NCBI RefSeq assembly: GCF_003865345.1
Contig: NZ_RMVE01000001.1
Span: 310,001 to 374,000 of the forward strand
Reading direction: 5' to 3'
Length of the DNA stretch: 64,000 nucleotides
From: Nonlabens xiamenensis
GTDB lineage: Bacteria; Bacteroidota; Bacteroidia; Flavobacteriales; Flavobacteriaceae
Part shown: in pieces, positions 31,145 through 34,937 of the stretch
Layout: the number at the start of each line of letters is the position of its first letter
Position numbering within the stretch: the first letter of the stretch is position 1
Position numbers and translations under genes: made by a program
Notes under the pieces: generated by a model
What the model was told of the DNA's origin: nothing
The model's database searches: none
What the model saw: the letters and a program-made list of their open reading frames with translations, nothing else

Positions 31145-33208
31145 TTAATTAAAATCAGCGTCATTGACCGTGTTGACTTCTACCTTTTTGACTTCAAAAT
31201 TCAAGTCACGCCCCATCATTTGCTGGGTAATAGTCATCGGGAATTTCACGCCTGATGTTTCCTCATAATCGCTGAACTTAATCAAGTTAGTCACTGTTTG
31301 ACCTTGTGCCTCACCTTTAGTTTCTTGTGCTACCAACAAACCAGTGTTTACATCATAAAAGGTTTTTTTGTCATCCGACCATTTGATCACATAAACTTGG
31401 TTATCACCCATCATTTCAGCTCCAGCCAATTCTGCTTTTGACGGATTATAAAGTTCTGGAAAGAACATGGCTTCATCTTGCACCGAGGCCAAATCGTCTC
31501 CGGTCAACTCTTGGCTACCACCCATACCACTCATTTTACCTTTTCCATCGGCATAGACTTGTTTGGCAACAGTGTTTCCACCCATTTTAACCGTCTGTAC
31601 CCATTTATCGCCCTTGGCTCTTTTTACATCGAGAACCAACTCACCCATCGGTGCAGTATACACAGCAAAGTAAGAAGTTGAATTCAAATTTTTAACTGCT
31701 TCCTCACCACCAATGGCTTTGATATAATTGTCAAGTACAGTTTCTGCTGTCAATCCAGCCGGAATCTCAATGGTGGATGGACGTTCTGTTTCATTAGCGT
31801 CTTTGTCGTAAAATTTGATGGGTACTGTTTTACCATTGATTTTCATTTTTTCCAATGGCTCAAGAATATCTCCTGCTTTTCCTACAAGTACAATACGCAG
31901 TTGATCTGGATTCAGGTATTTGTTGGCTACCCTTTTCACGTCTTCTTTGGTTACCTTGTTGATATTGGCGATAAAGTCTTTGTAGAAATCTTCATCTAAA
32001 TCATTCTTCTGGATATTAATGGCACGATCAGCGACCGTTGATTTATCTTCAGACTGCATGATAAAGTTACCCAAGAATTTTGCTTTCGCAGTAGCGAGCA
32101 TCTCATCATCTACATATTCATTGCGAATTCTTTCAATTTCCTTAAAGGTTTCTACTACAGCACTGTCGGTCACTTCATTACGTACCTTGGCGGTAGCGCG
32201 AAAGGTACTTTTATAATTACGACCTGCACCTATTGAAGACCTGGCACCGTAAGTATAGCCGTTTTCCTCACGTAAATTCATGTTCAAATAAGAACCGAAA
32301 CTCCCACCAAATACATAGTTAGTTACTAACGCTGCATGGTAGTCTGGGTCACTCATCTTTAAGTCGGACAAGCTCATAACAGCCAGTTCAGTTTGAACAG
32401 CGTTTGGAACGTCGATCAAATTAATCTGGGTCTCAGAAACGTCGCTCAAGGTTGGCATACTAGCTTTTGGCGCCATTCCTTCTTTCCAGTCGCCAAAATG
32501 TTTTTTTACCAATTTTTTGGCTTCCTTTTTTTCGATATCACCACTGATCAAAAGGTAACCTCTTGAGGGCTGGAAGTACTGATTGTAAAACTGCTCAACA
32601 TCAGCCAGGCTAACGTTGTTGATGGTTTCTTCAGTAGCAAACTCACCGGCAGGGTGATCTTTACCGTACACTAGCGCACTTCTCACCTTTCCTGCAATCG
32701 CAGCGGCACTGTTCTCACCAGATTTGATTCCTTCTATCAGTTGGGACTTTTCAAATTCCAGTTCCTTTTCGGTAAAATTCGGGTGGAAAGCCGCCTCGGC
32801 AAAAAGATCAAAAATCTGCTCTTTGTATTTAGAAAGTCCACCGGCATATCCTCCAGAGGTACTTACAAAAATGTTGGCCCCTAAAAAGTCAACATTCTCA
32901 TTAAATTCTTCCTTTGGAGTTTTAGTGGAACCTTTACCCATAATGGATCCAGTAAGGGATTGTACGCCAGCTTTGTCTCCTTCAAAGATTGGTGGATTAT
33001 TCAAATCCAGACTCATGGAAAAGGTAGGAAGTTTTTTATCTGTTACGACCAAAACCTTCAATCCGTTTTTCAATTCAAAATCATAGGGCTTACCTAGGTT
33101 GATTTCTGGTGTCGGACCAGAGGTTGGCATTTTGGATCTGTCGATCTGAGCCGTGGCCATCGCTCCAGTGAGCAAGAAAGCCATTATATATATCAATTGT
33201 TTTTTCAT
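31145..33208 (-). CDS. Catalytically inactive M16-family subunit with C-terminal lipoprotein-type domain
   Basis: 687 residues from ATG 33208, with a signal peptide. The M16 fold is clear, but the zinc motif HxxEH of the partner reads S-L-T-G-S here (GVQSLTGSIMG), so the site is dead. After about residue 470 comes a further domain (YIKAIGGEEAVKNLNS onward) resembling outer-membrane LolA/LolB-like carrier folds, common in Bacteroidota proteins. It overlies the substrate chamber of the active subunit encoded just upstream, 7 bases away. Confidence 0.87.
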   Translation of the reverse strand: MKKQLIYIMAFLLTGAMATAQIDRSKMPTSGPTPEINLGKPYDFELKNGLKVLVVTDKKLPTFSMSLDLNNPPIFEGDKAGVQSLTGSIMGKGSTKTPKEEFNENVDFLGANIFVSTSGGYAGGLSKYKEQIFDLFAEAAFHPNFTEKELEFEKSQLIEGIKSGENSAAAIAGKVRSALVYGKDHPAGEFATEETINNVSLADVEQFYNQYFQPSRGYLLISGDIEKKEAKKLVKKHFGDWKEGMAPKASMPTLSDVSETQINLIDVPNAVQTELAVMSLSDLKMSDPDYHAALVTNYVFGGSFGSYLNMNLREENGYTYGARSSIGAGRNYKSTFRATAKVRNEVTDSAVVETFKEIERIRNEYVDDEMLATAKAKFLGNFIMQSEDKSTVADRAINIQKNDLDEDFYKDFIANINKVTKEDVKRVANKYLNPDQLRIVLVGKAGDILEPLEKMKINGKTVPIKFYDKDANETERPSTIEIPAGLTAETVLDNYIKAIGGEEAVKNLNSTSYFAVYTAPMGELVLDVKRAKGDKWVQTVKMGGNTVAKQVYADGKGKMSGMGGSQELTGDDLASVQDEAMFFPELYNPSKAELAGAEMMGDNQVYVIKWSDDKKTFYDVNTGLLVAQETKGEAQGQTVTNLIKFSDYEETSGVKFPMTITQQMMGRDLNFEVKKVEVNTVNDADFN

Positions 33209-33215
33209 GTCAGTC

Positions 33216-34937
33216 TTATTTTTTTGTGATGGTGAATTCCGTTCTTCTGGACTGCTCGTATTCTTCTTCTGAACACTCCTTGTTGGAACAGTCCACAACT
33301 GGGTTTTCTTCTCCACGGCCTACGGCCTTGATTCTGTTGGCATCTACTCCTTTGGCTACGATATAGGCTTTAACCGCATTGGACCTTAGTTGCGAAAGAT
33401 TTTTGTTGTAGGCATCACTTCCTCTTTCATCCGTATAGGTCTCAGCCAGGATTTCCATGGAAGTATTTTTTATCATCAGATCAGCAATACGGGTCAATTC
33501 TCTACCGGCCGTTTCAGTGATTTCTGCCTTGTCGTTTTCAAAATAAATTTTTCTGATCTGGATCTTGTTATCCACGATCTCGAGTTCATCCTGCATAGCC
33601 TCAGGAGTTCCAGCTTCTGGAGCGCTTCCAGCGAGGTAATCCAATTCGAGCCTTTGGTTGGGCTTCAAGTATTGGTTGGCCACTCGCTTGATATCCTCAC
33701 GCGTTATATCTCTATAGATATCCAATTCTTTATTGATCAAATCAGTATCTCCCATCAACATATTATAGGTGGCCAAAGAACTGGCAATACCTTGAACTCT
33801 TGAATTTGAACTTACATACCTTGCTTCAAACTGATTTTGAAGTTTTTGGTACTCTCGTTCTGAAATCAATTCTGTTTGGAGCTTCACAATTTCCTCATCC
33901 ATCACCTCGGCAAGTTTATCCAGGCTCACATCTCCTTTGGCCAAAGCTCCCATGGTATAGGTACCATAATCCTGATTGGCTTGGTTGAAAGCCAATACCT
34001 GTAAAGCAATTTGCTCCTCTTCCACCATGCGCTTCTGCATTCTGGAACTGTTACCACCAGTTAAAACCGAGGAAATATAATCCAGCACATAGGCATCGCG
34101 ATCTACAGACTTAGGGGTTATGTAAGAGAATATTTTAGCAGGAATCTGAATATTGGCATCATATTCAGTAGCATATCGGGTTTCCGTAATCGGATCTTCT
34201 TTGATTACCTGACGATTGTTTCTAGGAGCCTTATTTTCAATAGGACCAAAATAATCTTCGATCATTTTCTTGGTCTTGTCCATATCTATATCTCCAGCAA
34301 CTACCAGGGTAGCATTGTTAGGATTGTAATATTTGTCATTAAAAGAACGGAATTCAGACAGTTGAGCCGCATTCAAATCTTCCATGGATCCAATAACGCT
34401 TTGACCGTAAGGGTGCTTTTTGAAAAGGTGTTTGTCAATACCAGTACGATAAATAATGGCACCATAAGGAGCATTGTCAATGCGTTGACGTTTTTCTTCC
34501 TTGACCACTTCGTTCTGGGTGTCCACACCGACCTGCTCGATTTTAGGGTGCATCATACGTTCGCTCTCCATCCATAACCCCAATTCCAGGTTATTAGAAG
34601 GAAAAGTCTCGTAATAATACGTACGGTCTTGCGTGGTGTTTGCATTGTTACTTCCACCATTGGCAGAAACAATATCGAACCATTTTCCTCTTTCAATATT
34701 TTCAGTTCCTTCAAACAAAAGGTGTTCAAAGAAGTGGGCAAAACCAGTTCTTCCTGGTTCCTCATCTTTGGCACCTACTTGGTACATGACTCCTACGGTC
34801 ACGACAGGTGCAGCATTTTCTTGATGGAGGATCACATGAAGACCGTTATCCAAGTCATACTCGGTAAAGGCCACCTCCTGGGAAAAGCCTAGTGCTGTGG
34901 TTACGACCAAAGCCAGGCTTAAAACAATTTTTTTCAT
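33216..34937 (-). CDS. Active M16 zinc peptidase fused to OmpA domain
   Basis: 573 residues with signal peptide (ending GFSQ). The M16 active site is intact: H68, E71 and H72 in HFFEH and a probable third ligand E148 (NEVVKEE), spaced as in the family. Residues about 460-573 are a second, unrelated domain: an OmpA-type peptidoglycan-binding fold with IYFENDKAEIT, then YTDERGSDAYNKNLSQLRS, and a closing QSRRTEFTI. So the peptidase is likely tethered to the cell wall or outer membrane. It is followed by its inactive partner. Confidence 0.9.
   Translation of the reverse strand: MKKIVLSLALVVTTALGFSQEVAFTEYDLDNGLHVILHQENAAPVVTVGVMYQVGAKDEEPGRTGFAHFFEHLLFEGTENIERGKWFDIVSANGGSNNANTTQDRTYYYETFPSNNLELGLWMESERMMHPKIEQVGVDTQNEVVKEEKRQRIDNAPYGAIIYRTGIDKHLFKKHPYGQSVIGSMEDLNAAQLSEFRSFNDKYYNPNNATLVVAGDIDMDKTKKMIEDYFGPIENKAPRNNRQVIKEDPITETRYATEYDANIQIPAKIFSYITPKSVDRDAYVLDYISSVLTGGNSSRMQKRMVEEEQIALQVLAFNQANQDYGTYTMGALAKGDVSLDKLAEVMDEEIVKLQTELISEREYQKLQNQFEARYVSSNSRVQGIASSLATYNMLMGDTDLINKELDIYRDITREDIKRVANQYLKPNQRLELDYLAGSAPEAGTPEAMQDELEIVDNKIQIRKIYFENDKAEITETAGRELTRIADLMIKNTSMEILAETYTDERGSDAYNKNLSQLRSNAVKAYIVAKGVDANRIKAVGRGEENPVVDCSNKECSEEEYEQSRRTEFTITKK

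Follow-up and report, generated by a model that had tools for sequence, protein, structure and literature searches.

Peptidases of the M16 family act, by default, on peptides and small unfolded proteins, and the M16B heterodimers close around peptides, with one subunit providing the zinc chemistry and the other one the substrate contacts. The OmpA/Pal domains, in turn, bind the stem peptide of peptidoglycan. The M16B pairs that most closely resemble the one analyzed here, namely, SPH2681/SPH2682 of Sphingomonas sp. A1 (3AMJ/3AMI), PA0371/PA0372 (4NNZ) and the H. pylori protease (5EUF), share with it the combination of an active HxxEH subunit and an adjacent inactive subunit; their subunits are 419–445 aa long in the PDB records and carry no added domains. 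We analyzed a 64,000-nucleotide stretch of the Nonlabens xiamenensis genome (contig NZ_RMVE01000001.1, positions 310,001–374,000; hereafter, the window) in which an M16B peptidase and an OmpA-family domain are encoded in one gene of 573 codons (33216..34937, minus strand), identified by its frame and Pfam domains and found as the same gene in 20 Nonlabens genomes. A sequence-only reading of this DNA had located the gene correctly; the coding strand is the minus one. The fusion is real and intact, and this domain architecture, within a known kind of peptidase, is restricted to one genus in the samples searched and is apparently new.

The reading frame is uninterrupted by stops over all 573 aa and includes all three Pfam domains. 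It starts with a signal peptide of about 19 residues (MKKIVLSLALVVTTALGFS|Q; 34881..34937, minus strand, assigned from the sequence). The only cysteines in the protein, C550 and C555, are both located within the OmpA domain; because the signal peptide is a plain one, without an N-terminal cysteine, the protein is not a lipoprotein. The catalytic Peptidase_M16 domain (PF00675, 2.5e-19) spans residues 35–181 (34395..34835, minus strand) and is followed by Peptidase_M16_C (PF05193, 1.9e-29) at residues 193–369 (33831..34361, minus strand); the scores of both domains are well over the respective cut-offs, and this composition is that of M16B subunits, in which the two domains make up about 50 kDa per chain. 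The zinc site HFFEH (residues 68–72; 34722..34736, minus strand), which the sequence-only reading had called intact, is invariant in 34 of the 34 aligned relatives and lies, together with the third zinc ligand E148 (34494–34496, minus strand), within complete M16 domains. E148 is found 80 residues past the first histidine of HFFEH, or about 76 residues past the motif, as is typical of M16B; the same spacing between the histidine and the glutamate is tabulated for SPH2681/2682 and BHP (PMC12731061). The PDB sequences closest to the catalytic subunit are 5euf, 4nnz (PA0372) and the active subunit of 3ami/3amj (2e-49 to 2e-45), and the top structural match in the PDB for the AlphaFold2 model of the fusion is 3ami, the Sphingomonas M16B active subunit (E 4.3e-42, TM 0.93 by target length); in this model, the peptidase is confidently predicted, the OmpA part moderately so, and the linker weakly (residues 442–450, pLDDT <50). 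A profile search of the N. xiamenensis genome for M16_C produced two matches, that is, the two genes of this pair. Many Nonlabens genomes (G001, G003, G012, G016 and others) additionally code for an M16 protein with a reading frame of about 950 aa, for which N. xiamenensis has no counterpart.

The adjoining downstream gene encodes the inactive partner (31145..33208, minus strand; 687 aa from the ATG of its signal peptide, assigned from the frame, Pfam and alignment to 3AMJ_B). The listed GTG start, at 33316, is placed too far upstream, making this gene overlap the fusion gene; the likelier start is the ATG at 33208. This homologous neighbor subunit lacks HxxEH, as judged from its sequence; its PF00675 score is under the cut-off (19.1 vs. 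22.3), PF05193 is over it (6.4e-29; 32078..32617, minus strand, with the R..Y segment LREENGYTYG in the alignment to 3AMJ_B), and its top PDB match is that same inactive subunit, 3AMJ_B (4.5e-28). The pairing with an inactive M16 chain that has an extra domain of its own, pointed out in the sequence-only reading, was thus borne out, and the extra domain can now be assigned to a fold. Because the profile search against PDB sequences yielded nothing meaningful for this domain, the assignment is taken from structure comparison: the 211 C-terminal residues (31148..31780, minus strand; AF2 pLDDT 94.3) are predicted to adopt the LolA/LolB-superfamily fold, with Foldseek matches to 3buu (2.6e-8), Porphyromonas gingivalis LolA3 (9tp6, 1.2e-7) and LolB (9tpm, 3.6e-6), and VIA Z-scores of 12–15 to 3bk5, 4z48, 3buu, 9tp6 and 9tpm. 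At the sequence level, the resemblance to LolB1_Flavo and DUF4292 is weak, with scores under the cut-offs of these families.

The LolA-like domain was matched in 128 of the 296 genomes of the phylum sample; in most of the strongest matches, it resides in frames of about 680–760 aa, while other matches are stand-alone proteins of about 230–290 aa. The domain is therefore old, widespread in Bacteroidota and independent of the OmpA fusion, with which it did not arise. In three genomes, the gene directly beyond the M16 pair encodes a homolog of this domain as a separate protein of about 250 aa with a signal peptide (G249:C32:5000-10500; G133:C2:860310-860924; G328:C61:167870-168496). We found no description of an M16-LolA architecture in the open-licence literature; this apparently undescribed combination of an inactive M16 subunit with a LolA/LolB-like domain probably matters more than the OmpA fusion itself, and it provides a concrete starting point for working out what the Bacteroidota M16 pair does.

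In the active subunit, M16 is followed by a linker (residues ~437–463; 33549..33629, minus strand) that is predicted with low confidence, varies in length among species and coincides with the point where the unfused relatives stop, according to the alignment and the model. As the sequence-only reading had it, the chain runs on past residue 460 or so into an OmpA-type domain, and the Pfam search proposed there detected PF00691 at residues 465–554 (33276..33545, minus strand; E=1.4e-19), with a score of 70.7 bits vs. the gathering cut-off of 27.2 and a fold that extends to about residue 572. The best PDB matches of this domain are the C-terminal domains of OprF, Pal and P6, and, in an alignment that includes 2AIZ, D503 and R518 fall within the TD...YN..L..R segment of Pal and P6. 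Both these residues, as well as C550 and C555, are invariant among the fusions aligned. D503 and R518 would supply the Asp and Arg with which OmpA-family domains engage the diaminopimelate of the stem peptide, and their counterparts in Pal and OmpA are the residues that we take to touch the peptidoglycan ligand. Given a Pal/OmpA-type domain with invariant ligand-contact Asp and Arg, tethering to peptidoglycan is plausible, and on these sequence grounds the domain most likely binds peptidoglycan and holds the enzyme at the wall.

OmpA-family domains can also serve other purposes, and the added domain might be folded and retained without anchoring anything to peptidoglycan, instead stabilizing the heterodimer or docking an envelope protein or a substrate. 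The rates of evolution are relevant here. In the same species pairs, dN/dS amounts to about 0.03–0.12 for the added domain vs. about 0.01–0.04 for the peptidase (rough Nei-Gojobori estimates from short sequences, for pairs with measurable dS), and its dN is about 2–5 times that of the peptidase in most pairs; the domain is under purifying selection, with a weaker constraint than that on the peptidase because its dN is higher. This faster evolution, the variable length of the linker, and the affiliation of the nearest paralog with a large TPR/PD40/OmpA family implicated in outer-membrane integrity and type IX secretion, where protein contacts matter as well, all speak for a non-anchoring role; the invariant pocket residues and the fact that the nearest solved relatives are peptidoglycan binders speak against it. 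On balance, we consider such a role unlikely, albeit credible.

Purifying selection 3' of the junction also bears on the more mundane concern, voiced in the sequence-only reading, that two genes had been joined by a frameshift or an assembly error. Frameshift, read-through, misassembly and a chance join are all ruled out by the presence of the fusion in 20 separate Nonlabens assemblies, which represent many species and share the same junction region; given, in addition, the single open frame, and with no support for an artefact found, the probability that we assign to such an origin is vanishingly small.

The fusion is present in 20 of the 23 Nonlabens genomes, that is, in 20 of the 22 that have the gene. 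In two metagenome-assembled genomes (MAGs), G006 and G013, the gene lacks the OmpA part (frames of 448 and 472 aa), and no ortholog was found in G021, a 78%-complete genome. At the other named loci, from Winogradskyella to Flavobacterium along with a Mucilaginibacter MAG, the active subunit stops at about 440–460 aa. Among the matches listed for the family sample (397 genomes, 237 genera; matches of E 1e-205 or stronger), the OmpA part was covered in Nonlabens only, and among those listed for the 395-genome phylum sample, with the longest frames inspected, there was no fusion outside this genus; the scans comprise the best rows, so that genomes with weak matches could harbor a fusion that escaped them. 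Several long frames from the phylum scan (G071, 615 aa; G112, 610; G181, 590; G234, 552; G100, 520; G116, 515) were rejected as candidate fusions, being overhangs of the upstream frame without an OmpA domain. A 1144-aa frame in G730 was rejected as well: it contains the active and inactive genes in frame, with a single TAG between them (G730:C1:1182700-1187000, 448-aa and 695-aa frames). Within the samples searched, then, the fusion is as unusual for M16 as the sequence-only reading had supposed, and the wide presence that it had allowed for was not found.

Orthology of the pair is fixed by its neighborhood, which tells little about function: the two M16 genes are adjacent in all 80 loci inspected, and the gene for ribosomal protein L21 is located beside them in 75 of these 80. 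In the window, the pair is flanked by genes for a DUF4199 membrane protein and L21 (35112–36360), the latter a 226-aa frame with a C-terminal extension. No description of an M16-OmpA fusion was found in open-licence papers; a 2025 review of M16 (PMC12731061) mentions neither OmpA nor peptidoglycan nor Bacteroidota, and another paper (PMC9291397) names OmpA solely in an unrelated context.

The added domain has a likely source in the same genomes. It shares 51–54% identity with the C-terminal part of a 621-aa CHU_0125/PorE-like protein of Nonlabens (G000:C5:570839), which is also encoded in the unfused MAGs. In the OmpA-domain tree, the 20 fused rows comprise a single clade (100/98) that is the sister group to the 621-aa paralog of the genus (joint node 100/96). 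The M16 tree places the fused rows in one clade with a modest SH-aLRT of 80, beside the unfused MAGs G006 and G013 and Winogradskyella, which are grouped apart from the fused clade (97). The trees are compatible with one gain of the OmpA domain in Nonlabens. Under the simplest account, the 3' end of a CHU_0125/PorE-like gene would have been acquired once, after the last M16 strand (LELDYLAG) and ahead of the intact partner gene. The fusion protein appears to borrow a CHU_0125-type domain without being a member of that family: against NF053607, it scores 94 bits vs. the cut-off of 620, through the C-terminal domain only.

Conversely, the fusion might be ancestral to a wider group and have been lost in most lineages, as could be suggested by the two Nonlabens-labelled MAGs and Winogradskyella, whose M16 sequences are 79–82% identical to the fused ones and come without OmpA. 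We consider this scenario highly improbable: a single gain is the shortest account because the M16 tree sets the unfused group apart from the fused clade and because no fusion was seen elsewhere among the matches listed in the family sample. The Nonlabens active subunit is 77–79% identical to those of Winogradskyella, vs. about 55–68% to those of most other Flavobacteriaceae. The Winogradskyella sequences cluster with the Nonlabens MAGs, and the M16 gene may have been transferred horizontally.

Taken as a whole, the locus probably encodes a periplasmic heterodimeric peptidase of the SPH2681/SPH2682 type that is anchored to peptidoglycan in Nonlabens. From knowledge of the family, we infer the heterodimer, the periplasmic site and the catalysis. 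The upstream subunit would supply the zinc site and the downstream one, devoid of such a site, the R..Y substrate-contact segment, so that the two would form a clam-shell chamber cutting peptides or small unfolded proteins. By binding the stem peptide, the OmpA domain would hold an otherwise soluble enzyme at the wall through the catalytic chain, placing cleavage between the wall and the outer membrane, and the partner chain would contribute its hydrophobic-groove LolA-like domain. Periplasmic processing near the wall, the function that the sequence-only reading had offered, holds up as a local refinement and fails as the basic function because the unfused relatives do the job without a tether. 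Given the LolA-like domain on the partner, it is attractive to suppose that the Bacteroidota pair handles lipoproteins or lipopeptides, although this is a speculation to which we give rather little credence: the domain would capture acylated clients, either mislocalised lipoproteins or cleaved lipopeptides, and feed them to the M16 chamber, with the Nonlabens version being fixed at the wall. The wall-anchored reading makes the locus a clean and recent natural experiment, in which a phylum-wide soluble periplasmic peptidase acquired what is probably a wall anchor in a single marine genus, and the likely donor family in the same genomes along with the unfused sister species allow comparison.

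Compared with known systems, the LolA/LolB superfamily (3buu, P. gingivalis LolA3 9TP6 and LolB 9TPM) shares the fold of the partner C-terminal domain, which differs in being joined to an inactive M16 chain and is only 5–13% identical in sequence. Pal and OmpA C-terminal domains (PF00691) belong to the same fold family as the added domain and have the same ligand-pocket residues, but their carrier is a lipoprotein or a beta-barrel rather than a peptidase. The nearest relatives of that domain, the OmpA proteins of the CHU_0125/PorE families (NF053607, NF052230), contain N-terminal TPR and PD40-type parts in place of the peptidase; the 621-aa Nonlabens paralog, at 401 bits vs. the cut-off of 620, is not formally an equivalog. 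The unfused pair of Flavobacteriaceae and other Bacteroidota is the same gene pair, with an active subunit 55–82% identical and the same LolA-like domain on the partner, and differs in that the active subunit ends at about 440–460 aa, without the OmpA domain. The M16B heterodimers 3AMJ, 4NNZ and 5EUF are similar to the Nonlabens pair in size and fold (sequence matches down to 2e-49 and 4.5e-28 for the two subunits); unlike them, the Nonlabens pair combines an OmpA domain on the active subunit with a LolA/LolB-like domain on the inactive one.
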